IMG/VR virus record: IMGVR_UViG_3300033153_012477
Span: 119,437 to 183,436 of that record
Length of the DNA stretch: 64,000 bases
From: a virus
Reading direction: 5' to 3' (one strand)
Notes under the pieces: generated by a model
Databases searched by the model: none
Seen by the model: only the letters and a program-made list of their open reading frames with translations
Told to the model about the DNA's origin: nothing
Position numbers and translations under genes: made by a program
In this document: positions 6,760 through 38,908 of the stretch, piece after piece
Numbering within the stretch: position 1 is the first letter of the stretch
Layout of the letters: every line of letters starts with the position of its first letter

Positions 6760-7722
6760 TTAGGAAATTTTCTCACATAGGGCATCAATATATTTTGTAA
6801 TATTAGCAATTTTTTTACTATTCTTTTTAACAGGAGCAGCAAACAAACTTTCTAATCTCGCTACAACACTCTCAAGAGTTTCTTCAGCACTGCTCTTCTT
6901 TTTAACACTTTTAAATCTTTCCATCATCTTTTCAAGACCTTCTTGTAACTTACCAAGATCCTCTTTCATTGAAAAACTATGGAGAAGTTCACGAATATCA
7001 TCGAATATTCGGCTGATCATTGGCTCGCCTAACTTTAGTTTTTCTGCTATTTCTTTTTGATCTAAATCTTTTTTCAATCTTAGTAAAAATACTTTGTTCT
7101 GATCATCGGAACCGTTTTGCTTTACATATTTAGTAGCTTTATCAGCTAAATCCTTATACTGCACTTCCTCTACAATATCTACTGCACCAGGAAGTCTGTC
7201 TAAGTCATTCTCTAAACCACCCTCATCAACATCTTTGATTAGAACTCGGTCCTCTTCTTTCTGCTGTGTCCTTCTGTAATTATTTAGGTGATTTTTTGTC
7301 ATAGTTTTTACTAGGTTGACAAATTGACCTTCTTTTCCTTCTAATTTTTCTCCATCTTCTTTCATATACTGAAAAATGTCTTTAAGGACTCTTTTTCCTT
7401 TAGACAAGTCGACACCTTCTTCTTCTTTTACTCTATCTTCCGCTCTAGGGTAGAATATCTTAATCTTAACCCAAGTAGAGACATCTTCTATTTGATCAGC
7501 AGCTAAGTCGTCCCCCAATTCTTTCTGTACAGCACTCTCGATAAGTTTATCAACATTTAAACCTGGCTTTAACTTCAAACCATGACTTCTAGCGGTGTCC
7601 TTTATATAGGAATCCCATTTAGCAGTAGCTGTTAAATAACGTGCGAAAGATACAGGATCAAAACTACTTTTAATAACATTAAATATGTAGTCAAGTTCTG
7701 CTACAACAGATTTCCTATTCAT
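6760..7722 (-). CDS. Sigma-70-family-like transcription factor (putative)
   Basis: 320 residues, Lys/Glu-rich. 'FVNLVKTMTKNHLNNYRR' (about 134-151) resembles sigma region 2 of ECF factors (the '.T.arN...d..R' helix). 'NKVFLLRLKKDLDQKEIAEKL' onward (about 209-250) reads like a region-4 helix-turn-helix: a helix, 'QKEIAEKLKL', then a second helix '..ISRIFDDI'. The N-terminal 120 residues and the 70-residue C-terminal tail match nothing I know. It is the last gene of the minus-strand fibre block, just before the terminator. A phage late sigma factor, analogous in role to T4 gp55, is the best guess. A plain HTH protein is the alternative. Confidence 0.5.
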   Translation of the reverse strand: MNRKSVVAELDYIFNVIKSSFDPVSFARYLTATAKWDSYIKDTARSHGLKLKPGLNVDKLIESAVQKELGDDLAADQIEDVSTWVKIKIFYPRAEDRVKEEEGVDLSKGKRVLKDIFQYMKEDGEKLEGKEGQFVNLVKTMTKNHLNNYRRTQQKEEDRVLIKDVDEGGLENDLDRLPGAVDIVEEVQYKDLADKATKYVKQNGSDDQNKVFLLRLKKDLDQKEIAEKLKLGEPMISRIFDDIRELLHSFSMKEDLGKLQEGLEKMMERFKSVKKKSSAEETLESVVARLESLFAAPVKKNSKKIANITKYIDALCEKIS

Positions 7723-7736
7723 TATTAGTCCCCTAA

Positions 7737-10646
7737 TTATTTACTGTGTTTTTTAATTAAAGGTCTGCCTTTAATTTTAAACATATCAAAACTATTATTA
7801 ACTTCAGTACTATCAAAGTTTGTTATTCTGTTTGTACCAGTGTTAACCAAATAGTTAGTTTCTACTTTAAGAGCTACTTCTCCAGTTTGGAAGTTTCCAG
7901 TTCCGTCTTGCTGAACCATTTCAATCATAGGAGACACAACTAATTTGTGTATACCCATCTCTCCGTCTTCAGCAACAGAAGTGAATCGACCGCCTTTGAA
8001 TGTACCTCTTTTTTGAATAACTCCCTCATTAGTCATGCCATTTAGTTGACCCGCTTTATAAGGAGTTGTGTGTACTGAATCAATTGTATAACTACCTCCG
8101 AGAATAGGTTTCTCAGTGTGAACTGTTCCAGTAAACTCACCATCTATACCATCCTTTAAAGGAAGAAGTGGTATTGAATTTTCATATTTTCTAGGAAGAA
8201 GTTCAGCAGTGTTTGCAGCACCTGTTCCGTTTGTCATTATTCTCAACTTATTATCATGATGTAAAATCTTACTGTCGATAAAGGAACCTGCAGAGGCACC
8301 AAAGTTAGTCCTTCCAGTTATTCCTTTGTACTCTTTGTAGTTGTAGTAGATATCAATGTTATCACCAGCTATTATAGTTTTTTTAGACAGAAGAGCTATT
8401 CTAATAACAGATGCAGAAGAAACTGGACCAAGTGGAAATGTAAGTGAGATCAAGCTTGTTTCAGGATCTATAAATACATTTACGAATTGTCGGTAGTTAT
8501 CAACATAACACGTAGTTTGGTAACTTCCAGAGAAAAATTCTCTTTGAGCACCAAGTATTAGCTCATCAGGATCTTTGTTGAAAAGACAATCCTTTAAAAC
8601 AACCGTAGTATCCCCATTACCGTTTATCTCATACCAGTCAACTTTACCGAGGTCTTCAATAGTTTGAGTTCTTTCATCATATTCAAGAATACCACCAGAT
8701 ACAACCACATCAAATCTAATCGCTCTTCCTGCAGATATTGTGTAAGGTAGAGTAACATCAACACTGTAGTTGCTATTGTTACGAACAACACTTACAAAAT
8801 CCATAAACGTAGGAGTAAGGTTATCCACATCATAAGCAGCTAGTACATACTCTGCATCTTGTGGGTTTATTAATGATCCAGGAATAGTGTAATCTTGTGT
8901 TCCGTTCCCTTCCATAAAGTATGAAATTAAAGTTCCAACTCCGTAGTAGTTTCTTCCACTTTGAATACTATAAGTGAAACCATAATCTTCATTTCCTAAA
9001 GTTTCTCTAATAGGAACCCTAACTTCTCTTCTATATGGGAAAACAGGAGAATTGATAAAGTCATTATCATTCACACTCAGCATTCCCCAATCTTTATTAT
9101 TATCTACATCGTGTACTCTTAGAATATCTGTAACTGGTTTTGTAAGCTTATTCCCTTTCTGTGGGTAGTCTACTTCAAAAGTCACATAGATGTTTTCGTT
9201 AGTTAGGTCAACAGAAGAGTTATCACCTAGAGTGTATGTTTCAGCTCCAGTTCCTCCACCAGAAAAAGTTCCAGTAACTGTTCTAATTGTTTCTACAGTC
9301 CCTGCTACATGCTTAAATCTCACTATAGTGGAAGCGGTACCGATTAGTGTACCTGTTGGGGATGGGCTTTGTACTTCTAATCCAATAACATCTGATGAAG
9401 TCCAATCGCTTCCAGCAGCTCCAACTACTTTATCATCAATTGTGTATTTTTGAGATACTTTTTTACTTGCAGCAACATCACTATAATATCTTTGCTGACC
9501 ATTAGGTTGAGTTAGTAAGTTTGTACCCGCTCCTGTGGAATCAGAAATCTTATTTACATAAAAACCAAGGTTAGTTCTCTTTAAGTTGTTCTCTAATTCT
9601 GATCTCTGTAAAGTTGTTTTCAACTCTCCTGATAACAATTCATCAAAAGAAGATTCTAGCAACGCCTTGTAATTGAATTTATCAAAACTGACAGCGTGTC
9701 TCAAATCTTCTAAATCTAATTGATGTACTTGGTCATAAAATAAACCATCAGGACGATCCGAAGCAACATCATCTATTAATGCAAATTCAGCACCGTTTTG
9801 ATTAATTATACTGAAAGCAGTTTTATTACGTCTCTGCACTCTCATCATAGGAATAGCATAAACATAACCGTCTACTGTTTTAAGAATACTTTTTGAAGAC
9901 TCTGAACCGTCTCCAGCAATATAGAGTCCACTGTCGTCTAACATTTCTCCAGCATTAACAAAGTTATATTCGGATACGTCTTCAGTTCCGCCTATAGCGA
10001 AAACATTATTTAAATCACTAACACCTTCTGGGTGTCCCTCAAAGTCCACACTATCTACGACTCTGATTCTATATTGAATTTGTGTTCTTGTGGTAGTTTC
10101 AAAACCAACGGAACCATTTACGATTTCGTCTTCCAGGTTTGTTCCACCATACACAGTGTTTCCAAATTTCCAAACTTTATCAACGTCAGGCTTGCCTTCC
10201 ATTGTATTTGAAGAAACCGCTGCTTTCCAAACTTCTAGAAAGACTAAGTCTTCCCTATTGTTCACAGCAGGGTTTAAAACAATTTTATTAGCAAAGTCTT
10301 CTCCATCTAGAGCCGTTCCTCCGATTTGGAGAATCCATCCATTTACCACAGCTAAAGTAGGGGTATTTTTTCTGCTGTAGAGATAGAATGTATCTGATTC
10401 CAGTGTTGTATTTATACCATAAGATTCATAAGCTTCATCAAAACCTATCTCAAAATCGGCATCTAACCAACCTGAAGGAACTTTGCTTCTTATAGCGTCT
10501 TGCAGCCTAGCAGAATTAAGATCTGCTCCTAAATTTAGTTCTGAGTCTAACACTGGTTTAGTGGGATGGAAGATAACACCATCAAGGCTTCTGTTCTCTA
10601 CGCCCAAAGTCTCTGATGTGTTAACATGTTTGCTATTCTTTGACAT
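7737..10646 (-). CDS. Large tail fibre / baseplate-anchored adhesin, paralog A
   Basis: 969 residues. The first ~330 are clearly related to the next upstream gene (10780-13863): 'VIFHPTKPVLDSELNL' near residue 24, then 'REDLVFLEVW', 'YRIRVVD', 'AGDGSES', 'VDGYVYAIP..RVQRRN' and 'RPDGLFYDQVHQLDLEDLRH' in the same order. The shared part probably anchors the protein to the baseplate. The remaining ~640 residues are beta-rich, low in cysteine and divergent, as expected of a receptor-binding shaft and tip. No enzyme motif is visible. A 133-nt gap upstream, the longest within the fibre block, may hold a promoter. Confidence 0.75.
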   Translation of the reverse strand: MSKNSKHVNTSETLGVENRSLDGVIFHPTKPVLDSELNLGADLNSARLQDAIRSKVPSGWLDADFEIGFDEAYESYGINTTLESDTFYLYSRKNTPTLAVVNGWILQIGGTALDGEDFANKIVLNPAVNNREDLVFLEVWKAAVSSNTMEGKPDVDKVWKFGNTVYGGTNLEDEIVNGSVGFETTTRTQIQYRIRVVDSVDFEGHPEGVSDLNNVFAIGGTEDVSEYNFVNAGEMLDDSGLYIAGDGSESSKSILKTVDGYVYAIPMMRVQRRNKTAFSIINQNGAEFALIDDVASDRPDGLFYDQVHQLDLEDLRHAVSFDKFNYKALLESSFDELLSGELKTTLQRSELENNLKRTNLGFYVNKISDSTGAGTNLLTQPNGQQRYYSDVAASKKVSQKYTIDDKVVGAAGSDWTSSDVIGLEVQSPSPTGTLIGTASTIVRFKHVAGTVETIRTVTGTFSGGGTGAETYTLGDNSSVDLTNENIYVTFEVDYPQKGNKLTKPVTDILRVHDVDNNKDWGMLSVNDNDFINSPVFPYRREVRVPIRETLGNEDYGFTYSIQSGRNYYGVGTLISYFMEGNGTQDYTIPGSLINPQDAEYVLAAYDVDNLTPTFMDFVSVVRNNSNYSVDVTLPYTISAGRAIRFDVVVSGGILEYDERTQTIEDLGKVDWYEINGNGDTTVVLKDCLFNKDPDELILGAQREFFSGSYQTTCYVDNYRQFVNVFIDPETSLISLTFPLGPVSSASVIRIALLSKKTIIAGDNIDIYYNYKEYKGITGRTNFGASAGSFIDSKILHHDNKLRIMTNGTGAANTAELLPRKYENSIPLLPLKDGIDGEFTGTVHTEKPILGGSYTIDSVHTTPYKAGQLNGMTNEGVIQKRGTFKGGRFTSVAEDGEMGIHKLVVSPMIEMVQQDGTGNFQTGEVALKVETNYLVNTGTNRITNFDSTEVNNSFDMFKIKGRPLIKKHSK

Positions 10647-10779: not shown

Positions 10780-13700
10780 CTAAGACCCTTGCTCATCAGA
10801 CTCACTAGCATTTATTAAAGGTCTGTACTTTAAAGGAAACAGGTCTACAGCACCGTAGATCTTCCCTCCTAACTGCTGAGTTAATTGAATGCTACTCAGA
10901 TTGTTATTCAGCTCTATCTCTTTACCTAGACCTAAAGCATCTTCTACGTAGATACCTTTTTGCTCTAAATACTCATCCTCAGGAGACTCTGTTTCATTGT
11001 ATTTTGTTGAAGTTGTTGTGATAATCATTAAAAATAGCTCACCTTTTAACTCACCCATACCCTCTACAACTGCTGTCCACTGGTTTAAATGGTTAAAAGC
11101 TTCTTCAAAATCAACACCTCTTTCAGAGATTTTAGGAGAATCTAGGATAACTCCTCTAAGCATATTAGTCTCATCGTCCTCATTTCCTAAAACCAGATCA
11201 AGTACTTGACCTTCTCTTAAATATGTCTCCCCTGCAACGGTGGAAACTAGGTCCCTTCCTGGAATCCTTCTAAAGCTTGATTCTCCTCCAGCAAGAGGAC
11301 TTTTCACATTCTCCCCAAAGAAGTTATACTCTAGAATTTTATTATTTATTGGCAAAGTCTCAATCATACCTAGTAATTCCTGAGGAACTATTTGACTCTC
11401 AGAGCCAGTACCTGCAGTACAGACCATTACCTTATCATCCATTTTTAATATTTTAACTTTTTGAACTTCATCTTCACCCAAACGCACTTGAGCAATACCC
11501 GAATAAGGGATATACTGGTATTGGAAGTAAAACTGATCAGAAGTTTCAGGGTTATAATATCCTAAAAGTGGTATTACAATTTGACCTGAAACTGCGGAAG
11601 GTTCTGATAAAGTATACTTTATTAAAGCCGACCCCAATCCTTCAATGGTGTCAATAAAAACCATTTTACTATTCACAAAAGCTATATGCTTATACTGAGA
11701 ACCGTCAAAAAATCCCGCTGTTGCTAAAGATCCATCACATAGAACATTTTTAGCTTTAAGATTCATAATGCCTTCAGTATCTCCCAACTGAATTGAATCA
11801 GAGAAGTTATAAACTTTTGCTACATTTTCAATACCTCTGTTATGAGGAATATAATCAAATGTGTAGCCACCACAAAGAACTGTGTATTCTAGGATATCCC
11901 CAGTATTGACCGTAAGTCCTGTAACTCTGTAACCATTACTTTGCTTTTCTATAGAAGGAGTTAGATACTGAAACGAAGTAGCGTTATAAACGCTTAAAAT
12001 TCCAAAAACACTTCTTTCGTACAGAGTGGATTCAATAAAATCTTCAGTGTCACCCGTACTCAAGACATAATACTTAAGCTCTAAGGTAGCACCTTTATAT
12101 ATTTCTTTGAAAGTATTTGCAGGGTTTGTTGCAGATTCAAAACGACTTATAGATCTAGCTATAGCGTTATCTTTAAAACTTCCAACAACTCTAGGTCCTC
12201 TTGTTGAGGCACTTTGAGAACTAAAGAAAGGTTCCAAGGGAACGTTTCTTTCGTTGTCTGTGTAAAGGTTAAAATCTAAAGGTTTACCGTCTTTGTCATT
12301 GTATCCTATTAACATATTTTGTATATTAAATGTGAAACCACCCTTACTTCCTGTAAGACCGCCACCTTCTCTAGCAACAAAAATAAATTCAAAAACAACT
12401 TTTTTGTTCTCTATTAGAGTAATATCTGTGGGAGTGTAAGTGATCTTATTTTTATTACCTGTGAGATAGTTCCAAGTTCTTTTTTCTCCGAGACCTTCCC
12501 AAGTCCCTCCAGAAATAGTGGAAATAGTATTAGTTGCCTCATCAAAAACCTTAACAACAGGCTCTATTTCAGAGATATAAAAAATATCTTCATCCCACAA
12601 CTCATACTCACATCCAGTGCTATATCCATAAGGTACAAACCAAACTCTACCGCCACTCATCTGCGGGCTACTCTTATAAAAAGAGTGTAGCTGAGTATCT
12701 TCCGCTTCAGAAAAGACCCTTTTCACTCCATCGGGGTTTCTACCCTCATCATCAATGCCAGGTCTATCTGTTACAGAAATTCCATCAATTTGAATTAAAA
12801 CATTACCAGATAGATTTTCGTCTAAAGGGCTATACTTTAATTCACTGTCTAAAGTTCTATTCCAAACATTATAGATATTTTCTTCAAGAAGTTGATTGTA
12901 ATCAAACCCGTTCAAACTTACTTTATGTCGGAGGTCTTCTACATCATTACTAGATATTTCATCATAATAAAAACCATCTGGTCTTTCACTTATCTCTCCA
13001 GAAAGAAGAGATTTACTAGCACCATTTTGATTTTGTAGAGTATATTCCTCTCTATTTCTTCGGTGTATTCTAGCTATAGGTACTGCATAAACAAACCCAT
13101 CGACTGTTTCTAAATCTAATTGAGATTGATAGCTTCCATCCCCAGCTACCCATAAGCCAGGATCGGTGTCATGAGGTCTAAAAGAGTAAGCTGTGTTTTC
13201 CTCACCTAAAGCTCCTTTAACAAAACAAGCTGGATGCCCTAAACCATTTCTGTAACTTACAAAGTCAACACCTTTGACCCATCTAATTCTATATTTAAGT
13301 TGAACTCTTTTTGACGTTTCAATTTCTATGTTAGGATCAATTAAGTCATTCTCATTATTTTCAAGAGCACTTTGAACAAAACCGTACTGAGGAACAACGT
13401 CATCAGTCTCTACTAGTTTTTGCCATACTTCTAAAAATACTAAATCTTCTCGATATCCAACGTGTGGAGAGGATTCACCAATTATTGCAATTTCTTCTTC
13501 AATACCTGATAATTCTTCCCATATATTTTTCTGAGCATTAGGTTGAAACTGATTAGTTCCACCTCTAATACACATGTACCACCCATTAATTATAGCACAA
13601 GGGTTATTGATAATAAAAGTATCTACCCAACTAGAAGTCAATTCTTCTCTATCCGCAGGAGCAGTTTTTATATCATTAAGTTTTAAAAAACCTGAGGGGG

Positions 13701-13863
13701 TAGTCTTTTTTAAAGCTTGAGAGTGTTTAAAATTGTGTATTTCTTGAACTAGATTCCACTCACTATCTAAGGGTGGTCTTTTTTGTTGAAAAACCACACT
13801 TGAAAAGTTTCTTTTTTCTTGTTCTAATACTCTTGATACGTAAGGTCCTAGATTCTTAGCCAT
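10780..13863 (-). CDS. Large tail fibre / baseplate-anchored adhesin, paralog B
   Basis: 1027 residues. It opens with 'FSSVVFQQKRPPLDSEWNLV' (about 19-38), the anchor motif shared with the genes at 7737 and 22971. Shared landmarks over the first ~340 residues are 'REDLVFLEVWQ', 'QLKYRIRWV', 'WVAGDGSY', 'VDGFVYAVPIARIHRRN' and 'RPDGFYYDEI..NDVEDLRHK'. The rest is beta-rich with no catalytic motif. The ribosome site is GAGGAAG. It probably forms trimers attached at the baseplate rim; that is inferred from fibre biology. Confidence 0.75.
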   Translation of the reverse strand: MAKNLGPYVSRVLEQEKRNFSSVVFQQKRPPLDSEWNLVQEIHNFKHSQALKKTTPSGFLKLNDIKTAPADREELTSSWVDTFIINNPCAIINGWYMCIRGGTNQFQPNAQKNIWEELSGIEEEIAIIGESSPHVGYREDLVFLEVWQKLVETDDVVPQYGFVQSALENNENDLIDPNIEIETSKRVQLKYRIRWVKGVDFVSYRNGLGHPACFVKGALGEENTAYSFRPHDTDPGLWVAGDGSYQSQLDLETVDGFVYAVPIARIHRRNREEYTLQNQNGASKSLLSGEISERPDGFYYDEISSNDVEDLRHKVSLNGFDYNQLLEENIYNVWNRTLDSELKYSPLDENLSGNVLIQIDGISVTDRPGIDDEGRNPDGVKRVFSEAEDTQLHSFYKSSPQMSGGRVWFVPYGYSTGCEYELWDEDIFYISEIEPVVKVFDEATNTISTISGGTWEGLGEKRTWNYLTGNKNKITYTPTDITLIENKKVVFEFIFVAREGGGLTGSKGGFTFNIQNMLIGYNDKDGKPLDFNLYTDNERNVPLEPFFSSQSASTRGPRVVGSFKDNAIARSISRFESATNPANTFKEIYKGATLELKYYVLSTGDTEDFIESTLYERSVFGILSVYNATSFQYLTPSIEKQSNGYRVTGLTVNTGDILEYTVLCGGYTFDYIPHNRGIENVAKVYNFSDSIQLGDTEGIMNLKAKNVLCDGSLATAGFFDGSQYKHIAFVNSKMVFIDTIEGLGSALIKYTLSEPSAVSGQIVIPLLGYYNPETSDQFYFQYQYIPYSGIAQVRLGEDEVQKVKILKMDDKVMVCTAGTGSESQIVPQELLGMIETLPINNKILEYNFFGENVKSPLAGGESSFRRIPGRDLVSTVAGETYLREGQVLDLVLGNEDDETNMLRGVILDSPKISERGVDFEEAFNHLNQWTAVVEGMGELKGELFLMIITTTSTKYNETESPEDEYLEQKGIYVEDALGLGKEIELNNNLSSIQLTQQLGGKIYGAVDLFPLKYRPLINASESDEQGS

Positions 13864-13934
13864 TATATAACTTCCTCATCTCATGTTTCTATTGAAATAC
13901 ACCAATGACTTAATATAAATAGTTTATTACTACT

Positions 13935-16769
13935 CTACAGCTCATAAGCAATTAGCTTAACATTGCTGATATCTAATAAACCATTCACGCTAGAAGCTTC
14001 AGCATAGATATTATAGTTATAGACACCTGCTGCTGCATTATCTAGAAATTCAATACAACTTGGAGAAAACGTAAGCCCTTTACTAGCGTCATTGACATAT
14101 TTTTGTTCTAACTCAAACACAGCTATTTCAGTAGCATCTCTATGAACATAGATTTTACCAGTAATGTAAAAGTCAGCACCAGTTTGACTCAATTCTAGTT
14201 TTCCTGGAGTTCCTATTCCACCTGATGATCCAGGTAGTAGTTGTAATCTCACAGGTCTTCCTGTAGTCGTTAAGTCTACATCTAAGTTTGTTATTGCTAC
14301 TTTAGAAGTCACAGATTGAGAGACGGCTGCACTAACTGCAATATCTCCTGGTCCTGCTACAGAAGAAGACATATCCTTGTCATCTTTTGCTCCCATGTCA
14401 CCAATATGAATCATTGCTGGGTTAGTCGCCCATGTTCCTGCAGTTACTTGAGTAGACTCAAAGTAACCTACGCTTACAATAGCTACGTTAGCTCTCGCAC
14501 TCTCACTATAAACGGTTTCAACATTTCCTGCTGCAGCACTTAGAGCGGTTGTAGATACTATAGTATCATCTTTATGATATTTTTGAGATACGGCTAATTC
14601 TAAATTTCCGCCGTAATCTACCAAGTAAACATATATTCTACTCTTCAACCCACTTGAAGTTCCGAGAGTAGCTCCAACATCTACAGTAAGTAATTGAGCT
14701 GCACTTGCTCTACGGAAATACCAGTTACCATTTGTAAGGGTTGGGTTTCTATAAGCAACTCTAACAGGAGAACCGCTTGTAGGATCACTTCCAGATTGAT
14801 CTTTTAATCTAACTTCGATAGTGTTTAAATTAGCAAAAGCAGTAAAACCTACATTTTCTATTAGATGTCTATTTTTATTTTCACCTAAAACATTCCAATC
14901 TGCTCCATTAGACATTTCTAAGTGTTTAAAGGTGCTGTTCCAGAACCCTCTGCCTTCTTGTCCAATTGCTGACGGTTCGGAACCGTCAGAGTAAGTTTCA
15001 TATTTAAAACTTAACTGAGCAAGAGCTGTTGCAAGAGTTCCCTCAGCAGTACCGTCGTCGCCTTCCACTGCTTGTAGTACATAATCAGCACCTCTGTGAA
15101 ATTTTACATTTTGAGAGTCAGTAGCATCAGTTCCGACATGCAAACTTTTAACATTTAGCTGAGTCTTATTTGCAGAAGGAGTTCCTTCTGCGGTAGTGTC
15201 ATTACCTGCAACCACTTCAAGAATACCGTTCCCTCCTCTATGGAGCTTGGCATTTTGAGATGAGATAGCACTTTGACCTACTGATAATCCTTTAACATTA
15301 ATATTTCTTCTTCCTGAAGAAGACATAGCTCCGTCAGCCACTCCATCATCAGCAGCGACAACCTCCAGCTCTACTTCATCAGTAGCATATCCTGTGTTTA
15401 AATATCTGTGTAACTTTGAGTTTTCACCAAGGTCAGTATCCTTACCAACAACTAAACTTTCTACATTTACTTTAGCTCTGCTTGTGGGATAAGATGTTCC
15501 ATCAGAAGTAGCTACATTAGAGCTTCCTGTTAGGAATTCAACTTCCTCATTTCCATTTCTGTGAATTTTAACATTATTAGCAAGCGTAGTTCCGTCAGAT
15601 CCGATCATTACATCTTTAGCATTCAATTGAGCCTTGTTAGGGGATCTAATTGCGTCTGCTGTAGCATCGTCGGCTTCTACAACTTCCATTTCGTGGTTAT
15701 TCCCACGATGTAATTTAACATTGTTAGCGTGAGTAGCATCTCCGTCGCTACCTACTGAGAGTTTTTTAACATTAAGCTGTGCTTTGCTAGATGAACGTGT
15801 TCCGTCCGTTTCTGCACTAGAGCCGCTTCCGTCCACAACTTCTAATTCCTTAGAAGCCCCTCTGTGAAATTTTGCATTGTTTGCTAAAGTTGCGTTTGAG
15901 CCAACCATAACACTATTTACATTTACTTGAGCCTTATTTGCTGACCTGCTATCTTCCGTAGTGGTGTCGTCACCTTTAACTACTTCGAGTTCATTTGTTT
16001 GCCCTCGGTGTAGTCTTAAGTTGTTGGATTCTGTACCACTAGCTCCTATCAAAGCACTCTTACAGTTTATTTGAGAACGGTAAAGAGGATTTCTAACACC
16101 GTCGGTAGTAGCACTGTCTTCAGAACTAAATTCTAATTCCTGAGAACCACTTCTAAAAATCTTTCCACCAGTCCCATTAGCTCCAGAACCGACAGATACG
16201 CTTTTTGCAAAGATACCTGCTTTAACACCTACAGCTTCAGACCCGTCTGCGGTAATGTTATCTCCTTCTACAAATTCCAACATTCCAGCAGCACCTCGGT
16301 GAAGCTTGACATTTTCAGAAGATGTTGTTGAAGCTCCTACTGTGGCACTTCCTAATTTGACATCAGTTCTTCTAGAAAATGATTCAACACCTTCCGAGGA
16401 ACCTTCATCAGCGGTGACTATTTCTAGATCACCTGGACCGCCTCTTCTCAACTTTATATTATTTGAAGTTGTGGCACTTGTTCCTATAATTGATTCAGAA
16501 GCAGTTACCTCATTAACGGCAATACCTTTCATTCCAAGGTTAGCTAGATTAGCTGGAGGAACAGGTGTTCCCTCTGCGGTAGTATCACTTCCTATTACTA
16601 TTTCTAATTTATCAGTAGCGGCTCTGTGTAGTTTAACGTTGTCAGCATCACTGTTGTTAGAACCTATAATGATTCCTCCGTGATTGGATACCTTTGCTCG
16701 TTTAGTACCAGAAGGTGCTAACTCAATATCTGAATTTAAATCAGGACTTTCTATTCTTCTGTTACTCAT
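13935..16769 (-). CDS. Repeat-containing tail fibre (11 LHRG repeats)
   Basis: 944 residues. Residues ~25-590 hold eleven copies of a ~50-residue unit built around 'NVKLHRG', then 'ELEVV', 'DDTTAEG' and 'NKAQLNVKS'. The His/Arg landmarks lie 48-60 residues apart. The C-terminal ~350 residues are a different beta-rich region ('GFWNSTFKHLEMSNGADWNVLGEN' lies at the border). The repeats probably make a long trimeric beta shaft, with the C-terminal part as tip. The same unit occurs in the genes at 17678 and 18641. The ribosome site is AGGAGAG. Function as a fibre is inferred from composition and context. Confidence 0.75.
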   Translation of the reverse strand: MSNRRIESPDLNSDIELAPSGTKRAKVSNHGGIIIGSNNSDADNVKLHRAATDKLEIVIGSDTTAEGTPVPPANLANLGMKGIAVNEVTASESIIGTSATTSNNIKLRRGGPGDLEIVTADEGSSEGVESFSRRTDVKLGSATVGASTTSSENVKLHRGAAGMLEFVEGDNITADGSEAVGVKAGIFAKSVSVGSGANGTGGKIFRSGSQELEFSSEDSATTDGVRNPLYRSQINCKSALIGASGTESNNLRLHRGQTNELEVVKGDDTTTEDSRSANKAQVNVNSVMVGSNATLANNAKFHRGASKELEVVDGSGSSAETDGTRSSSKAQLNVKKLSVGSDGDATHANNVKLHRGNNHEMEVVEADDATADAIRSPNKAQLNAKDVMIGSDGTTLANNVKIHRNGNEEVEFLTGSSNVATSDGTSYPTSRAKVNVESLVVGKDTDLGENSKLHRYLNTGYATDEVELEVVAADDGVADGAMSSSGRRNINVKGLSVGQSAISSQNAKLHRGGNGILEVVAGNDTTAEGTPSANKTQLNVKSLHVGTDATDSQNVKFHRGADYVLQAVEGDDGTAEGTLATALAQLSFKYETYSDGSEPSAIGQEGRGFWNSTFKHLEMSNGADWNVLGENKNRHLIENVGFTAFANLNTIEVRLKDQSGSDPTSGSPVRVAYRNPTLTNGNWYFRRASAAQLLTVDVGATLGTSSGLKSRIYVYLVDYGGNLELAVSQKYHKDDTIVSTTALSAAAGNVETVYSESARANVAIVSVGYFESTQVTAGTWATNPAMIHIGDMGAKDDKDMSSSVAGPGDIAVSAAVSQSVTSKVAITNLDVDLTTTGRPVRLQLLPGSSGGIGTPGKLELSQTGADFYITGKIYVHRDATEIAVFELEQKYVNDASKGLTFSPSCIEFLDNAAAGVYNYNIYAEASSVNGLLDISNVKLIAYEL
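15000..16697 (-). repeat. Array of 11 divergent ~150-bp coding repeats (LHRG units)
   Basis: Within the 944-residue fibre, LHR/FHR/IHR landmarks fall near residues 48, 108, 157, 205, 254, 302, 353, 403, 454, 510 and 558. Units differ at many positions, so they are old duplicates rather than recent copies. Recombination between units, or with related units in neighbouring genes, could change fibre length. Confidence 0.8.
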
Positions 16770-16786
16770 TTAATCTCTCCTATATA

Positions 16787-17662
16787 TTAAGCGTAATCAG
16801 CCACAGTTGAAAAATTTGCGGTAAATACATTAAACCCACTGACATAAACCTTGTCGCCAGTTGTTCCAGAATAACTTGAAATCTGAATATATGGTTTAAC
16901 AAACCTTGTTCCAATAGCTAGATTATCCGAGGACCCGCCTTCATTCTTTGCTCTTCCTTGGCTTAAAGCCCAAGAAGTAGTGACTGCCCCACTTGCTTCT
17001 ATAAAAGGCTTGTTCGTTGTCAAGTCGTTTTTATTAGCATCAAAACAATAAGCTCCAGCATTTATTGTTGCGGTTCCTAAAGCTTTTTTATACCTAACAA
17101 AACCACCTACTCCTGTATAAGGCATTACAGGTAAAAAATCTTTCAAGCGATATACGCAATCGCCGTCAAAAGCAAATCTACCATAACCCATGCCTGTGTC
17201 CGCAGACGCTTCATAAGTCATATTTCCAGTTCCAGACAGTCTTTCCCATCTAGATAAAAAGTAACCTATATCTGAAGGATCCATCATAAAAAAATCATTT
17301 ATCTGTCTATATCCCAAATCTGTTCTTACTCTATCTGAGATAACAGAGGCTAAAATGTATGTTCCTAAATTTACAAATTTAAAAACAGTGCTTTGAGAAC
17401 CACCTACTTCATTCAGAGCTTCTCCTTTTTCCCACCTCAAATTTAATCCCGAAGGAGCAAAGTCTGCAGTAATAACACCTGAAATAACGTTATCTAAAAC
17501 AACTATAATTTCTTGACCAATACTTTCATTAGCAAAAGTGAAGGACATATTTGCTCCAACACTTCTATTAAATATAGGACCCCCCAGCCAATCTATCGCT
17601 GTAGTAGCACTTATATCAGTGATTGGTTGTTGTGTTCTTGATGATGTCCCTAAAATAGGCAT
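16787..17662 (-). CDS. Tail fibre / putative receptor-binding protein
   Basis: 291 residues, beta-rich, with almost no charged clusters. It lacks the LHRG unit. The opening 'MPILGTSSRTQQPITDIS' followed by 'FTFANESIGQEIIVVLDN' and 'LRWEKGE' is like the small distal fibre or hydrolase-free tip proteins of phages. A strong AGGAGAAG ribosome site precedes the ATG. It sits between two LHRG-containing genes, so it may form the tip of a multi-protein fibre. The exact function cannot be told from sequence. Confidence 0.6.
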   Translation of the reverse strand: MPILGTSSRTQQPITDISATTAIDWLGGPIFNRSVGANMSFTFANESIGQEIIVVLDNVISGVITADFAPSGLNLRWEKGEALNEVGGSQSTVFKFVNLGTYILASVISDRVRTDLGYRQINDFFMMDPSDIGYFLSRWERLSGTGNMTYEASADTGMGYGRFAFDGDCVYRLKDFLPVMPYTGVGGFVRYKKALGTATINAGAYCFDANKNDLTTNKPFIEASGAVTTSWALSQGRAKNEGGSSDNLAIGTRFVKPYIQISSYSGTTGDKVYVSGFNVFTANFSTVADYA

Positions 17663-17677
17663 ATTCTTCTCCTAACC

Positions 17678-18331
17678 TTAAACTTCTTGTAGTATTGTAA
17701 TCAAGTTGTTAGTTCCACTATCTGTAAAAACACTAGTGGAGTCAGCCCAACAGTCTGTTACAATAACGTTGTTACAACTGGCTTGAACTGTTATATCTTG
17801 ACCAAATTTTAAATTTTTTATTAAACTTTTACTTGCCGTTGAAGCCATTACAAAGTTATCTGATATTTCAGAACCGTTTCCTTTGCCAATTATTGTGACT
17901 CTTTTATTAAGAGTTATTGTAGATCCTTCTGTTATAGGAGAATCAAGTTCTAATACATAGATCATGTTTCCTTCATAAGCATCTGCTATTGCTGCAGACA
18001 AAGTCGTGTGAGTAGCAGTGCCTGCAGAAACTTGAGTAGCTGATCCAACAATTAATTCTCCAGAAGCAATCATAGTGACAAAAGCTAAGTCAGCATAAGG
18101 AGCACTACTTCCGTCTGGTGAATTGTCGGTTTCTTTTACAAATTGTAATCCAGAAGCACCTCGATGAAGTTTAATATTTTCATCAAGAGATCCTACAGAA
18201 CCTTTTCCTGCAGCACCTACTACAAAACCCGATTCGGGTGTAAAAGCTCCTGAACGTCTAACTTCTCCCGCAGAGTTTTTAGCGTAGACTTCAACATTTT
18301 TATTCTTTTTTGTTTCTGTTAATCCAGCCAT
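17678..18331 (-). CDS. Short fibre with one LHRG unit and a beta-helix-like tip
   Basis: 217 residues. Residues ~45-75 hold one LHRG unit ('NIKLHRGASGLQFVKE..NSPDG'). From ~107, 'LSAAIADAYEGNMIYVLE' followed by 'SPITEGSTITLNKRVTIIGKG' and 'SLIKNLKF' and 'CNNVIVTDCW' has the look of a right-handed parallel beta-helix (pectin-lyase-like, as in tailspikes), but only about four to five rungs long. No catalytic acid pair can be assigned. It could bind or cleave surface polysaccharide, or be a truncated spike. Confidence 0.6.
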   Translation of the reverse strand: MAGLTETKKNKNVEVYAKNSAGEVRRSGAFTPESGFVVGAAGKGSVGSLDENIKLHRGASGLQFVKETDNSPDGSSAPYADLAFVTMIASGELIVGSATQVSAGTATHTTLSAAIADAYEGNMIYVLELDSPITEGSTITLNKRVTIIGKGNGSEISDNFVMASTASKSLIKNLKFGQDITVQASCNNVIVTDCWADSTSVFTDSGTNNLITILQEV

Positions 18332-18377
18332 TTATATATCCCTATCTAATTAAATAAGTCCTAGTATAAGTAAGTTA

Positions 18378-18617
18378 TCAGTTCGTTTTTATATCCTGAT
18401 TAGCTTCTTTCTCCATATTTTGCTTTATCAATAAAAAGCGTTCATTAGAAAACTTAAACAAAGTTCCTGTAATTGGAATCTCTATCCTAGTCTCATCTTC
18501 AAGAATAAAGAACCTTGTAGGCACAGGAGTATCGGGCATTATCCCGTCTCCTTTTACTTTCTTAACTGTTTTCCAAAACCAATCTTTCTCTGTCTTAAAT
18601 TTCACTGTGTAAGTCAT
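18378..18617 (-). CDS. Small hypothetical protein in the fibre block
   Basis: 79 residues with good AGGAG ribosome site. Sequence features: 'KDWFWKTVKKVKGDG', a Pro-rich turn 'MPDTPVPTRFFILED' and a beta-strand pair 'RIEIPITGTLFKFSNERFLLIKQNME'. It resembles a compact beta domain. It might be a fibre chaperone or an adaptor, but nothing in the sequence decides this. Confidence 0.6.
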   Translation of the reverse strand: MTYTVKFKTEKDWFWKTVKKVKGDGIMPDTPVPTRFFILEDETRIEIPITGTLFKFSNERFLLIKQNMEKEANQDIKTN

Positions 18618-18640
18618 ATCAATCTCCTAAAATCGCTATA

Positions 18641-19798
18641 TTAAAAGACCCTCACTATATAGAAGGTTCCTAAGTATTTTGGTCTATTTTCTGTTGCTGA
18701 CGCTGCTCCAGAAGTCACAGCGTTGTTTGTTACACTTGCTGCAACAGTTGAAGATGCCCAAGCGACAGACGCTGTGTCAGATGTTCCTGAAACTAATGTT
18801 TTATAAGTTCTGATGGCTGTACCTGCCCCAACTGAGGTTACCACCGCCAAGTGTGATTCTGTAAATGATCCAATACTATTAGATATCTCCATAGATATAT
18901 TATTTGTGTAAGGCATAATATGAGCACCCAAACTTCCTGCTCCGTGACTGTGTGCCGTTTGATCTGTATTTAACTCAGTCTTATTAAAACTTGCAGAAAC
19001 ATTAGACGTGACACTGTGAGTGTGGCTAGAATCATTAGATCCACCAGCTCCACCTGCTAAAATACTTCCCATTAAAAATCTATCATCAGTTAAATTAGGC
19101 AAGTGTCTACCTGCTGCATTCCAAATCAAAGATCCTGTTATTCCAGGAGTTGATCCGTCTGCCACATAATATCCTCTAGTGTTAAGATATGAGTTTGCAC
19201 CAGCTACTGTGTTTAAAGGTAAAAAATCTGCATTAACAAAAGTTCCATTAACTCCGTCTAAATAATACCCTGGATTCCAAGCTACTACCGATCCAACGGG
19301 GACACTTCCCAAAACATCTGCATAATTAGGAGAAAAGGCACCATCTGCATAGGTATCATCTCCTAAAACAAATTGAACTAAACCGTTACCCGCTCTTCTC
19401 ATTTTCACATTAAAAGATTGGTTAGGGCTGTCTCCTAAAACTATACATTTTGCTTGCACCAAAGCGTGGTTATTAGATCGACTTCCTTCCACTTCTGCAT
19501 CATCGGCAAGAACAAAACCTAGCTCTCCATTTCCACCTCGGTGTAATTTAACATTATTAGTTAAAGTAGAGTTGGTTCCTATGGAGGCGTTTTTAACATT
19601 AATTTGAGCTTTATTAACTGATCTTACGCCCTCAGCAGTAGTATCATCACCTCTGACAACTTCAAGTTCCCCTGAAGCTCCCCGATGTAGCATTGGGTTA
19701 ACATTAGGATTTCCATCAGTACCTATAGTAACATTCTGGACGCTGACATTATCTACATCCATTTCTTTAGTATTTAATTGCGGCGTTGATTGAGCCAT
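18641..19798 (-). CDS. Tail fibre with three LHRG units and a tail-collar domain
   Basis: 385 residues. The first ~145 hold three LHRG units ('PMLHRGASGELEVV', 'VKLHRGGNGELGFV', 'VKMRRAGNGLVQFV'). Next comes 'VPVGSVVAWNPGYYLDG' and, further on, 'YYVADGST' and 'RHLPNLTDDRFLMGS', which match the phage tail collar family pattern (G-x-I/V-x-x-W, D-G-S, L-P-x-L-x-x-R-F). The last ~130 residues contain 'HTHSV', typical of collar-type fibre tips. The ribosome site is GGGAG. The collar domain supports identification as a short tail fibre. Confidence 0.8.
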   Translation of the reverse strand: MAQSTPQLNTKEMDVDNVSVQNVTIGTDGNPNVNPMLHRGASGELEVVRGDDTTAEGVRSVNKAQINVKNASIGTNSTLTNNVKLHRGGNGELGFVLADDAEVEGSRSNNHALVQAKCIVLGDSPNQSFNVKMRRAGNGLVQFVLGDDTYADGAFSPNYADVLGSVPVGSVVAWNPGYYLDGVNGTFVNADFLPLNTVAGANSYLNTRGYYVADGSTPGITGSLIWNAAGRHLPNLTDDRFLMGSILAGGAGGSNDSSHTHSVTSNVSASFNKTELNTDQTAHSHGAGSLGAHIMPYTNNISMEISNSIGSFTESHLAVVTSVGAGTAIRTYKTLVSGTSDTASVAWASSTVAASVTNNAVTSGAASATENRPKYLGTFYIVRVF

Positions 19799-19813
19799 GT
19801 ATTTCTCCCAAAC

Positions 19814-22800
19814 TTATGAAATAGTGATTTCTGAATTTCCATCCACATCAGTTATTTTAGTTGTTATCGTTCCATCTAATGCTTTTGATCTTCCGAACAC
19901 TGTTGCTATATTTCCTGTAGTAACAACTAAAGCAGAATCCATTGCTTTTCCTGAAGCATCTTGTTTAATTAAAGCATTTTTAACAATCCCATCAGCATTA
20001 AGAGTCAATCCGCTAATCACGTCTTCTTGTGAAAGCAGTCTGATATTCTCAACCTCATAATCATCTCCTGAAAACTTAACTAAAGAACTTAAACTTCCTG
20101 TCGTCGAGCTGATGTATGTTCCAGGTAGCATGCTAAAGGATATTCCTTGAGCTGTTATTTCTTGTTCCGAAGTAATAACTATACTTTCAGTAACAAGAAC
20201 AGTTAGGTTAGAACCCATACTGTTAATTGTTGTTGCAAAACTTGTATCTGCTGAAGTTAAAATTAAATCAGGAGACATAACCTTAGAGCTATCTCCTGTG
20301 ATAGAAACAGTTCCTCGCTCGTCTTTACTTGCTTCAAAAGCTCCTGCACTAACCTTACTAACATTAAAATGAATTCTCATCTTAAAGGTAGAACTTAAGT
20401 TAATTGGGATAGAAGCAAAAGAAGTCCAATCAAAAGTTACTTCCGTATCTGCGATACCTCCTGTATTTTTATCAACATACTGTAAGCCATCTTCAACAAA
20501 GTAAATTGGAGTTCCAGAAAGATCTACAAACTCTAATGAGATGTTTTGAGGTCGGGTGGACATAGGATGTGTTACTGTTGACGGAGGTGTTGTAGAATAC
20601 CAATCAGTAGCGTAGTCTGTTTTAGGACTAGCAAAACCACCCTCACTTGTATAAGCATACTTAATAGCTTCAACTAAGAAGTAATCACCAGAATCCCAAG
20701 TAATAAAAGGATGGCTGGAGTTATCTGGTACGTTATAAAGTACCACGTCATTAGTGCGGTATTGTTCTAAATCCGAACTAAATAAGTTTAAAAATTTATC
20801 AGCACTATTATCCCAATACTTGAAAGTTACCAAGTCAGGAGTTTGTCCAAAGTTGTGAGCTAAGGTTACTCCATTCGCCGAAGCATACTGTCTGTCTGAT
20901 TTTTTCCAAATATTAGGAATACCATTCATCCAAGTAGTGTGCTCTCTTATTGAATAACCTTCGTGAGTATCCTTATCGACCACAAGAGTTCCATCTACCC
21001 AGTACTGTCCAATAGTCACATACTTTGGATTAGATAAAGCAGTGTAAGGAGGTATCTGAGACATAACAATATAATCAGCATGTGCTGCTTGTGTTACCTC
21101 TCCAGCATCTTGATCTGTGTCGACGCTGATATACCAAGTACCTGACGCACTCATATCATAGGTTACATTTAACTCTTCATTAGTGTGGTAATATTTATTA
21201 TTAAAATTAACTTTCTTCCCAACAGTAGATCTGATGGAGAAAGATGTAGCATCAAAGTATAGTGGGACAAAGTCCCCAGAGCTTCCTGCAGCTCCTGCTC
21301 CTGCAACGGAGTATGGGATAAACTTAGAGTAGTCTATTGTTGTTAAATCAGACTCAACAAAGTATTCTCCAATCGCTACAAAGTCAGGGTCAAAAGAAGG
21401 TCCTGCTGGATCTTCTAATGTAAATTTAATGTGGCTTGTAGAAAGTTGACCTGGTCCTGCTGAATCAGCAGTGTCTACTATGATGTACCAAATACCTGAA
21501 GCACTTTTGTCAAAAGATTCTACTATATTAGTTTCACTGTAAAAATAGTTTGAAAGAAGTTTAACCTTTCTTCCGAAGGTGTGGTTAACTACAAAAGTAT
21601 CGTTATCAAGGTAACTCGGTACAAAATCACCTTGCAATGTATACATGTCTCTGTCAGATACGGACATGAAAGAAGAAAGAGCCATTCCCGACGCAGCTAC
21701 TTCGCATTTAGCTAAAGGAGCATAGTGTTGTGGAAAAGCTATCTCATTAGGATTAAGTTGAGTTTCTACTAAGTGTGACGTGGTTATCTCTTCCCCATCG
21801 CCAGAAGTATCTAAGCAGATAAACCAAGTTCCTACAGCTCCTGTAGATCCTGGGTCAAAAGCTTTAACTAGATCGTTGTTCTCATTTAGATAAAAATATT
21901 TATGATTAGCTCGTACTAATCTTCCTCTTGAACTTTGTAATCTGTAAGAAACACTAGATTCATAACTTGCTGTTAAGTCTCCTACAAAAGTATCAATTGA
22001 TCTTGGAGAAAAAGTTCCTAAGTTTTGTTGAGAAACACTGCCACTGACTACTTCATAATATCCAATAACTACTAAGTTCTGTGGGAAAGAAGGAGAGTTA
22101 GGTTCTAAGTCTGACTCTACTATATAGTCATCTTTGTTGGTGATATTAATAATGCCTGGAGCTTTATCTGTATCAATGCAGATATACCAAAGCTTATCCG
22201 TTCCTAAGTTATATGTGAAATCAAGATCACCGTCTATTGAGTAGAATTGCTCATTAAATCGAGTTGATCTTCCTTGAGTATCTTGTAGTCTATATTCTGA
22301 TGAAGACTTATAAATAGGAACAAAATCATTTGCTCCTGCTCCGCCCGATCCTCCGCCCGATCCTTTAAATACAACTATATCTGTGGCGGTTATAGAAACA
22401 AAAGTTCCCCAATTAGGTGATGCTGATCCAGCACCTGCTAACAACTGCACTAAGCATATAGCTGTGCCTGTAAAAGTTGGGTATGTTGCGGTCCCTAGAA
22501 CGGGATCGGGGTTACCCCAAACCAATCCAATTTCACCATTTGATGTTGCTTCAAACCCTAACCAAATATAATCACCTGTGGCAAGGGAGGGGCAAGTTAA
22601 AGAAACTCCTGTAGCAAAGTCTCCTGTATCATCGCCATTTACTAAATCTATTGTAGATTCTACTAATTTTTTGTACTGTCCATTTATTGGAGCAGTTGCG
22701 TATTTGAAACTATCCTCGGTCCCACCCCATTCAGAACCGTCAGATTTGAAAGTCTGAAGTTCAGATTCATGAACGGTTAAAACTGTTCCTTCTAATGATA

Positions 22801-22936
22801 TTCTAAATGGGAAATTTGTCTTGGAATTTAAAACATCCAAAAGGTTATCAAGGGACTCTCGATTACCAGTCTCAAGAACTTCCAAAGAATTTTCATTAAC
22901 TATTTCCCAAGTTTGTGGTCTAGTTGTATCGCTCAT
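19814..22936 (-). CDS. Large tail fibre with four ~115-residue repeats
   Basis: 1040 residues. After an N-terminal head (1-200) ending in a Gly/Ser linker, residues ~203-655 hold four repeats, each with 'DFVPxY' or equivalent, '(F/Y)RLQ..GR..R', 'YFY', 'GTWYI.VDT' and 'FP...V.IG.Y.V'. After that come further beta-rich segments and a C-terminal ~150 residues with 'GTYISSTTG' and 'DDYEVENIRLL', which read like a short beta-helix. No cysteine pairs or enzyme motifs are seen. It probably forms a long side fibre. Confidence 0.75.
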   Translation of the reverse strand: MSDTTRPQTWEIVNENSLEVLETGNRESLDNLLDVLNSKTNFPFRISLEGTVLTVHESELQTFKSDGSEWGGTEDSFKYATAPINGQYKKLVESTIDLVNGDDTGDFATGVSLTCPSLATGDYIWLGFEATSNGEIGLVWGNPDPVLGTATYPTFTGTAICLVQLLAGAGSASPNWGTFVSITATDIVVFKGSGGGSGGAGANDFVPIYKSSSEYRLQDTQGRSTRFNEQFYSIDGDLDFTYNLGTDKLWYICIDTDKAPGIINITNKDDYIVESDLEPNSPSFPQNLVVIGYYEVVSGSVSQQNLGTFSPRSIDTFVGDLTASYESSVSYRLQSSRGRLVRANHKYFYLNENNDLVKAFDPGSTGAVGTWFICLDTSGDGEEITTSHLVETQLNPNEIAFPQHYAPLAKCEVAASGMALSSFMSVSDRDMYTLQGDFVPSYLDNDTFVVNHTFGRKVKLLSNYFYSETNIVESFDKSASGIWYIIVDTADSAGPGQLSTSHIKFTLEDPAGPSFDPDFVAIGEYFVESDLTTIDYSKFIPYSVAGAGAAGSSGDFVPLYFDATSFSIRSTVGKKVNFNNKYYHTNEELNVTYDMSASGTWYISVDTDQDAGEVTQAAHADYIVMSQIPPYTALSNPKYVTIGQYWVDGTLVVDKDTHEGYSIREHTTWMNGIPNIWKKSDRQYASANGVTLAHNFGQTPDLVTFKYWDNSADKFLNLFSSDLEQYRTNDVVLYNVPDNSSHPFITWDSGDYFLVEAIKYAYTSEGGFASPKTDYATDWYSTTPPSTVTHPMSTRPQNISLEFVDLSGTPIYFVEDGLQYVDKNTGGIADTEVTFDWTSFASIPINLSSTFKMRIHFNVSKVSAGAFEASKDERGTVSITGDSSKVMSPDLILTSADTSFATTINSMGSNLTVLVTESIVITSEQEITAQGISFSMLPGTYISSTTGSLSSLVKFSGDDYEVENIRLLSQEDVISGLTLNADGIVKNALIKQDASGKAMDSALVVTTGNIATVFGRSKALDGTITTKITDVDGNSEITIS
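20972..22330 (-). repeat. Four tandem coding repeats of ~340 bp
   Basis: Corresponds to residues ~203-316, 318-434, 436-545 and 554-655 of the 1040-residue fibre. Shared landmarks are a VDT/IDT/LDT triad after a Trp-Tyr/Phe-Ile strand, and an 'IG-Y' motif near the end of each unit. Divergence between units is high. Confidence 0.75.
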
Positions 22937-22970: not shown

Positions 22971-25655
22971 TTATACTTTTCTAACTTTTATCTTTGCACC
23001 TTTCTTTACTGTATAGCCAAAACTAACTAAATTTGGAGCTACTTTAGCGTAGTCCTCATTTTCATAAGTTTGCCTTCCATTTATTTTAATGTCTAAAAAG
23101 TCAGTACTCAAAAATGTAAAGTTACTTAATGTAAAATCGGAGTCTCCTGCCACACTTAAGTTAAAAGTTTCTTCATGGGTATAAGGGGTATCTCTATATT
23201 GCCAAAACTTACTCTTGTAAGCTTTAAAACTACTTCTTATAATGTCACTCGAACCGTTAACACCATATTCTCCTAGAGGAACATATCTTCTTCTATCTAC
23301 CTGAGAAGGTGTTGATAGCATGGTTGTGAAACTTCCAGCAGATACTGAACCTGTAGCACTTAAAAGATCCATATACATGTAGTAAGTAGAACCCGTAGCT
23401 GCTGTTGTTGCAGTGATCAGAATATTACTGACTGATTCTACATAACTATTGTTAAACCAACCCTCTCCCTTCTGAACAAGAAAGTCTTGAGTGTTTCTGT
23501 AAACTGGTTTGAAAGCAGTGTTATCTAAACTACCCAGACTTAACCAGTTTCTTTTATCATCTATGTGATCCTGAGAAATAAACTTAACCGTTCCCGCTGT
23601 TGCCGAACCATCATCTTGGAAAATCACCATAGACAGTGGAAGCTCGTTATCAGGAATTTCTGGATCTTCAACAGAAGAAGAAGCACTTTGCTCCAAACTT
23701 TCGTACATCTTAACTGATCCAGTTTCATCTAGAGTGAAAAAGGCTTTGTTAAAATAGTCAGCAGTGAGTGGAGATGTTTGATATACTCCAGAACCTAAGT
23801 TTATAGTCTCGCCAGAATACTCATAGTATTCTGTATCATTAATAAAATATCTTCCAGGGTAAATATCAAAAGATTTATCCGTAGGATTCTGAGCAACACT
23901 AGCTAAAAAGCTAAGTTTATCAGGATTAAATTTGTCAGCTTCAGTTGCTTCTTCAATTAAACCACTTGGTCTTTTTACTAAAAAATTAGTATCAAAAGGT
24001 GGTGGTGGATTATTCTTAATGAAGAGTCCTCCAGCATCTACAAAAAGAAGATCTGAAGAAATAGCTGTACCTATTCTTTGTACAAAGGTTCCCTGTAATG
24101 TTGGAGGGGTTTGTGTGATTTGCCCTACAGCAATGTCAATATAAACAGGAAGACCTATAAAGGTGAAATTCCAAGAAGTGTTCCTGATTTCTCCAAAAGT
24201 AATTATGTTATCTCTTTGACCTAAAGGCATATCCTGTCCAGCAATACCTATCACTGGAAGTTTAGTTGGGTTAGGATATAAGTCTACCGCAGACGCTCTC
24301 AACACATGTTGATCGCTTCCAGGTAAAATGGTCACTGCTGAAAAAGCAGGGATATTAGTTTCTGCTGAGATATATTGGTGTGTTATGGTTGGAAAACCAG
24401 TTTCCCCATCACCACCGCTGCCTGCATACTTGTTTTTCCAAGCAAATGGTACAAATTTTCTTCTATCAAGAATAGAATGAACAACACCACCTATAGTGTA
24501 AACTTCAGCAAGAAGAGCATGATAATCTAAAGGCTCTTGTTGCCTACACTCAAAGTGTCCTGCTTTGTTTATAAAAACAAAGTTAATAGTGTTGTCAAGA
24601 AGTTGACCAAAAACTGGAGGAGTGCCTGTAACTGGCGGGTGAGCACTAAAATCTAAATGCTCTGTTCCTTCCTCAATAAAATGCTCAACGTCACCAACTA
24701 ACAATCTACCGCTATTAACTTTGACAGATTGTGAAGTAACCTGCTCGATACCACAGCCTTCTACAACAAAGTTATAAGCAGTCTTATCTCTAACGTCTAG
24801 GACCATACTCTCTGTTACGGAAGCATCCCCCATAATCCTGTTCAGATTAGCAATATTGAAAAAGTTCCTTCTGTTTGCTATCCAACTTTTTGAGCTGTTG
24901 CTATCATAAAAAGTAAGTTTAGCTACAGTGTTATAAGGAGGAGTATCATTTAAAGCTTCATTTACAACCAAAGTTTTTTTATTAAGGAGTGGTGAACTAG
25001 AGTTGGTTGTAAAAGGACCAGGATTCTGGGGGTCGCTTGTGGTGAAGATTACCCCCGCTGGAAAGTTATGTAACAGCCAATCAGGGAAAACATTTCCACT
25101 TAAAGAATCAAGTGAAATAGTTTTATTAGCATTGTTATATGTGATTGTTTCGGTTATTGGATCAGCATTTATGTCAAAGGATATGCCAGGATCAGTTGTA
25201 TTGGGATCAGCAGCGTTTTCTCTAACTTTGATTTCTAAGATAATTCTTTCTTGAACAGTTGTTTCAAATCCAAGATTACTATCAACTATGCTCGGGTCAT
25301 CTGCCCCGTCCACTTCGTCTATATACCACTCTGCGTAGATAACATCTAATCTGTTAGCTACTGGAGTGGAGAGAGTGTTAATTCTAACATCCTCAGTTAA
25401 TTCAATAGGATAGCCTTTATGATAGAAAATACCTTTCTTGATGAATATTTCATTATTCAGTGCAGAAGGATAAATCGTAAAACCCTCACCAACATAATTA
25501 TCACCCAAACCATAATTAGAAATGTCTATAGATTTCTCATTGAGAATATCTTGGACTAGGTTGAGTTCATAATTTAGGAGAGGTTTTTTCTCTTGGAAAA
25601 CAATTTTGCTTTGTTTTTTACTTCTATCAAACGTGTCTCTTGATATATCTGCCAT
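22971..25655 (-). CDS. Large tail fibre / baseplate-anchored protein, paralog C
   Basis: 894 residues, first gene of the minus-strand fibre block. It opens 'RDTFDRSKKQSKIVFQEKKP' and then 'LLNYELNLVQDI', the same anchor motif as the proteins at 7737 and 10780. 'RDTFDPxKxxxxVxxQQGxxxLDADWNE' openings are known in bacterial and phage injection-system proteins of unknown function (DUF-type), and this looks like a relative. Continuation 'IFIKKGIFYHKGYPIEL' is common in phage baseplate-to-fibre connectors. The remainder is beta-rich. The ribosome site is GGGGAT. A role as connector between baseplate and the later fibres is inferred. Confidence 0.72.
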   Translation of the reverse strand: MADISRDTFDRSKKQSKIVFQEKKPLLNYELNLVQDILNEKSIDISNYGLGDNYVGEGFTIYPSALNNEIFIKKGIFYHKGYPIELTEDVRINTLSTPVANRLDVIYAEWYIDEVDGADDPSIVDSNLGFETTVQERIILEIKVRENAADPNTTDPGISFDINADPITETITYNNANKTISLDSLSGNVFPDWLLHNFPAGVIFTTSDPQNPGPFTTNSSSPLLNKKTLVVNEALNDTPPYNTVAKLTFYDSNSSKSWIANRRNFFNIANLNRIMGDASVTESMVLDVRDKTAYNFVVEGCGIEQVTSQSVKVNSGRLLVGDVEHFIEEGTEHLDFSAHPPVTGTPPVFGQLLDNTINFVFINKAGHFECRQQEPLDYHALLAEVYTIGGVVHSILDRRKFVPFAWKNKYAGSGGDGETGFPTITHQYISAETNIPAFSAVTILPGSDQHVLRASAVDLYPNPTKLPVIGIAGQDMPLGQRDNIITFGEIRNTSWNFTFIGLPVYIDIAVGQITQTPPTLQGTFVQRIGTAISSDLLFVDAGGLFIKNNPPPPFDTNFLVKRPSGLIEEATEADKFNPDKLSFLASVAQNPTDKSFDIYPGRYFINDTEYYEYSGETINLGSGVYQTSPLTADYFNKAFFTLDETGSVKMYESLEQSASSSVEDPEIPDNELPLSMVIFQDDGSATAGTVKFISQDHIDDKRNWLSLGSLDNTAFKPVYRNTQDFLVQKGEGWFNNSYVESVSNILITATTAATGSTYYMYMDLLSATGSVSAGSFTTMLSTPSQVDRRRYVPLGEYGVNGSSDIIRSSFKAYKSKFWQYRDTPYTHEETFNLSVAGDSDFTLSNFTFLSTDFLDIKINGRQTYENEDYAKVAPNLVSFGYTVKKGAKIKVRKV

Positions 25656-37216: not shown

Positions 37217-38907
<1,691 letters not shown>

Positions 38908-38908
<1 letters not shown>

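Follow-up and report, generated by a model that had tools for sequence, protein, structure and literature searches.

Of the parts that make up phage receptor-binding proteins, the fibre shaft is one of the less characterised, and the locus considered here raises the question of what the repeated unit carried by three of its genes is, and what part it might play in the fibres. The window, i.e. the whole stretch of 64,000 nucleotides analysed, runs from base 119437 to base 183436 of an IMG/VR record 192.7 kb in length, whose source phage is uncultured. It contains a fibre region on the minus strand (13935-22936) with five head-to-tail genes, coding for proteins of 944, 291, 217, 385 and 1040 residues, and the unit, referred to as LHRG, is found in the 944-, 217- and 385-aa proteins (Table 1). 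The original prediction spoke of three neighbouring genes; they do lie on the same strand and in the same cluster, but are not strictly adjacent, as two unit-free ORFs intervene. The 291-aa protein is probably a further fibre or accessory structural protein. Between the genes for the 385-aa and 217-aa proteins there is a small ORF of ~79 codons (about 18393-18620, minus strand), which starts MTYTVKFKTEKDWFWK... and has a ribosome-binding-like GGAG of its own. The 1040-aa protein (19814-22936, minus strand) has internally similar segments of its own, of roughly 100 residues (GDFVPxY...GTWYIxVDT); the DUF4815-like g7 is at 22971-25655 (minus strand).

Baseplate_J, a collagen-containing fibre protein and the DUF4815-like g7 indicate the neighbourhood of a contractile-tail phage, and a match to a baseplate-wedge/fibre-network component falls just under the cut-off. 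None of the unit-bearing proteins is placed in the virion by a family match and the record is an uncultured contig, so the three proteins could belong to head or neck fibres or to other decorations, but the presence of the DUF4815-like and baseplate genes in the neighbourhood makes this improbable, and baseplate or tail fibres are the reading preferred here.

The unit is 48-50 residues long, with the consensus xNVKxxxVGxxxxxxxNVKLHRGxxxELEVVxGDDTTAEGxxSxNKAQ. A motif scan and a self-built HMM give exactly 15 copies, in agreement, both in number and in position, with the fifteen copies of about 50 residues (11, 1 and 3) that had been predicted. In the 944-aa protein the units start at about residues 26, 86, 135, 184, 232, 280, 330, 380, 432, 488 and 536, in the 217-aa protein the one unit starts at about residue 34, and in the 385-aa protein the three start at about residues 16, 64 and 112; the spacing is 48-60 residues (mostly 48-52). 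All 15 were recovered by leave-one-out HMMs (24.8-72.8 bits), and the whole-sequence scores of the three real proteins were 59-693 bits, whereas the highest score among 1,500 copies of them with shuffled residues was 9.5 bits. No further copies were found elsewhere in the window (E <= 1), nor elsewhere in the 192.7-kb record with the 385-aa protein as query. The units share only about 36% identity, with no trend along the array or with distance, and a recent tandem duplication of units was rejected on these grounds.

Table 1 Features of the unit-bearing genes and of the 291-aa gene within the cluster (window coordinates).
Feature	Coordinates	Strand	Evidence
944-aa protein, ORF	13935-16769	-	
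944-aa protein, N-terminal head (MSNRRIESPDLNSDIELAPSGTK...), kept in relative L031	16697-16769	-	first 88 residues 61% identical to L031 597-aa protein
944-aa protein, array of 11 LHRG units, residues 26-587	15009-16694	-	self-built HMM, 11 domains of 56-82 bits; leave-one-out
944-aa protein, GRxxW linker behind last unit, about residues 588-640	14850-15008	-	39% identity to L029 298-aa protein over 88 aa, last unit included
944-aa protein, C-terminal tip	13938-14900	-	INPHARED tblastn; blastp
291-aa gene without LHRG unit	16787-17662	-	ORF; no family match
217-aa protein, ORF	17678-18331	-	
217-aa protein, single LHRG unit, about residues 34-83	18083-18232	-	HMM 58 bits; leave-one-out 29 bits
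217-aa protein, C-terminal module, beta-helix by eye only	17681-18076	-	sole match phrog_19864 (unknown function), E 1.5e-4
385-aa protein, ORF	18641-19798	-	
385-aa protein, three LHRG units, residues 16-163	19310-19753	-	HMM 71-80 bits each; AlphaFold2 hairpin per unit
385-aa protein, C-terminal module, tail-collar-like by eye (HTHS motif, final NRPKYLGTFYIVRVF)	18644-19309	-	sequence inspection

The C-terminal modules behind the units differ in how far they can be related to known proteins. Two stretches of the 944-aa protein's tip have counterparts in other phages: residues 624-858 are similar to gp15 of Pseudomonas phage AH02 and residues 797-944 to gp75 of Bdellovibrio phage phi1422 (tblastn against INPHARED, 2e-13 and 1e-4, respectively). 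With AH02 gp15, annotated as a "major tropism determinant", it is this middle C-terminal part that is common to both, while the LHRG unit was not found in the fetched AH02 region. The likeness to phi1422 gp75 covers the last about 150 residues (32-33% identity), gp75 itself being a short protein without the repeat. The Mtd-annotated match raised the possibility of a diversity-generating retroelement, which was rejected as there is no RVT_1 in the 192.7-kb record (which may be incomplete). The C-terminal module of the 217-aa protein has no beta-helix match in Pfam. That of the 385-aa protein has no match in Pfam (up to E = 10), PHROG or INPHARED, and the tail-collar label it was originally given is not borne out by any Pfam tail-collar match up to that threshold, the likeness being by eye only.

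None of the libraries searched describes the unit itself as a family, as had been suspected. No covering match was found in Pfam, NCBIfam or the PDB sequences, the PHROG matches on the units are marginal (E 0.006 or worse), and a two-unit consensus returned nothing from INPHARED (50,697 phage records, E up to 10). No LHRG unit was found in 398 genomes of one phylum, and the scans of GTDB genomes gave chance matches only. Among the candidates from IMG/VR, the one obtained with the whole 944-aa protein as query (L009) is a YadA-like protein matched by chance, and those from two exact LHRG patterns (L010-L013) and three from a spaced pattern (L026, L027 and L030) are chance matches as well; a six-unit alignment (A2) used as query recovered no relative.

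The nearest known thing is a "DTNLYRxxxxxLKTD" unit, carried by fibre or minor-tail proteins of the Streptomyces phages Attoomi, Hiyaa and BRock, the Herelleviridae phage f2b1 and the Thermus phage MN1. It raises the possibility that LHRG is a very divergent form of this existing, unnamed group, a question of descent that leaves room for a shaft role. The two are alike in their location in phage fibre/tail proteins and have an identical spacing, G-(10 or 11)-L[YH]R-x5-L, and hhalign places them in this very register (p = 0.02), but with a probability of only 2.4%, and the LHRG HMM scores about 2 bits on the LYR proteins. In addition, the LYR unit was found once per protein, in a W-G-x-G context and with no 48-residue array, and does not have the LE[VF]V/DD..EG half of LHRG. 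We consider common ancestry somewhat unlikely, though well worth keeping in mind, and treat the resemblance as a lead, not as membership.

AlphaFold2 predicts the same beta-hairpin in every modelled unit, with a strand over NVKLHR, a turn and a second strand over ELEVV, at pLDDT values of about 70-88 (mostly 75-85 for the 385-aa protein's three units, and reaching 88 within units 5-8 of the 944-aa array). These are single-chain predictions with input alignments made of the window and locus proteins only, and they give no confident packing between units (pTM 0.26-0.37). A Foldseek search against the PDB and BFVD returned nothing significant. The lack of any regular fold, which had been named beforehand as an outcome that would speak against the repeat, is not what is predicted at the level of the unit. 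LHRG is probably an undescribed beta-hairpin repeat from which a large contractile-tailed phage builds the shaft, or a short shaft/adaptor segment, of several of its host-recognition fibres. The units could also be repeated ligand-binding modules giving avidity (e.g. for surface sugars), with the C-terminal module trimerising the protein, instead of a passive shaft. Their low identity without a trend along the array means that binding could have diverged, and genes with one unit exist, but the conserved G, N, LHR, LE, DD and EG look structural and a relative, L031, has a separate lectin-fold tip, so that we find this reading hard to favour; a shaft or adaptor segment is preferred.

Relatives in IMG/VR were obtained with a g7 scan and a spaced degenerate pattern, G-x7-N[VIL]KLHR-x5-[LVI][EQ], which together led to L022/L028, L029 and L031. 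L022 and L031 are kin of the source phage, with identities of 71-74% for g7 and g5. For L031, a 68.8-kb contig, the identities are 71% for g7, 71% for g5 and 72% for g3; the contig retains the 217-aa gene, as an ortholog 72% identical over the whole protein, and an unrelated-looking 382-aa protein occupies the place of the 385-aa gene. A 597-aa protein of L031 has only its first 88 residues in common with the 944-aa protein, and carries one unit against 11, followed by a widespread fibre module and a lectin-like tip (Laminin_G_3, 9.8e-13). The comparison of copy number with related phages that had been proposed therefore gives 1 versus 11 units behind the same head, although the change rests on one clear comparison, because only three relatives were found and the fibre regions of two of them are cut by contig ends. 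The middle module of the 597-aa protein is also present in other phages, including in a tail fibre protein of Caulobacter phage S2B. Phage C72C1 was rejected as a unit carrier, since it has only an IDWDANLG-type module in common with L031 and the LHRG unit is absent. L031 also has a run of fibre-like genes (8483-9631, 12212-13132, 13143-14057 and 14065-14466) with a repeat in common, DNYVPLFNGTNNLD...SELNLL, and with signal-peptide-like N-termini, which are unusual in virion proteins.

An ortholog of the 385-aa protein, 54% identical over 115 aa and with at least two units before the contig ends, is present in L022. The 1040-aa protein and g7 are more conserved in L022/L031 (71-74%) than this LHRG part. 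L029 appears to be an unrelated phage, with no other similarity within the stretch compared, and yet its 298-aa protein has one unit and a GRxxW linker like that behind unit 11 of the 944-aa protein, with a different tip. As judged from the comparisons with L031, L022 and L029, both the tips and the copy number change around the LHRG unit.

One position of the second strand distinguishes the last unit of an array from the others. It is Q in all six last units before a tip (LQAV, LQFV, VQFV, IQFV, LQFV and MQLV) and in none of the 13 inner units, where it is E and once G. Fisher's test gives p = 4e-5 (1e-4 if the orthologous pair is left out, and 0.002 in the window alone), for a pattern that was noticed before testing and units that are related by descent. 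The single unit of L031 is best matched in its first half by unit 1 of the window array (score 99, next 43) and in its second half by the third and last unit in the 385-aa protein (89, next 75). It looks like a hybrid of first-type and last-type halves, which fits loss or gain of units through recombination between first and last units.

If LHRG is a shaft repeat, the proteins would be built from an attachment head, one or more units as spacer, and a host-contacting tip; by analogy with established phage fibres, the fibre would be trimeric, with the tips touching the host. Units stacked end to end would set the length of the fibre by their number, the E may contact the following unit, and recombination between units near the LHR core could alter copy number and swap tips. 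A bolder proposal, which we offer only tentatively and regard as unlikely as it stands, is that LHRG represents a new class of fibre-shaft repeat with a stop signal, in which the inner E docks the next unit and the Q of the last unit gives a standard joint for any tip, with recombination at the LHR core changing length or tip while the fold stays intact.

Tail fibres are known to be modular and mosaic (PMC10684548), and the features shared with the modular phage receptor-binding proteins described there are a conserved head, shaft modules and swapped tips. Two marks of a modular fibre were found here: a conserved N-terminal part with differing C-terminal modules (the 944-aa protein and the 597-aa protein of L031), and a repeated unit with a regular predicted hairpin. 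What sets the LHRG shaft unit apart is the lack of any match to it in Pfam, NCBIfam, PDB or INPHARED sequences, with only marginal ones in PHROGs. The original idea of a build-your-own-fibre system is supported as far as a common unit with exchanged C-terminal modules in relatives is concerned, but "system" is too strong a word for ordinary fibre modularity. Such modularity is well known, and what is new is the unit itself, a new part in a familiar kind of machine. The LHRG unit would seed a new protein family entry and, occurring in 1 to 11 copies with a recognisable last form and varied tips, would show clearly, in a natural case, how fibre length and specificity change.

Other genes of the window were noted in passing. 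The 969-aa and 1027-aa proteins (7737-10646 and 10780-13863, minus strand) are paralogous, with 27% identity over 898 aa, and neither has a useful family match. A subtilase-family protein (38908-40506, plus strand; Peptidase_S8, 6.8e-24) is encoded directly 3' of a collagen-repeat fibre gene (37217-38908, plus strand), and a 320-aa protein (6760-7722, minus strand) has a weak match to a PHROG annotated as RNA polymerase sigma factor (E 1.1e-5).
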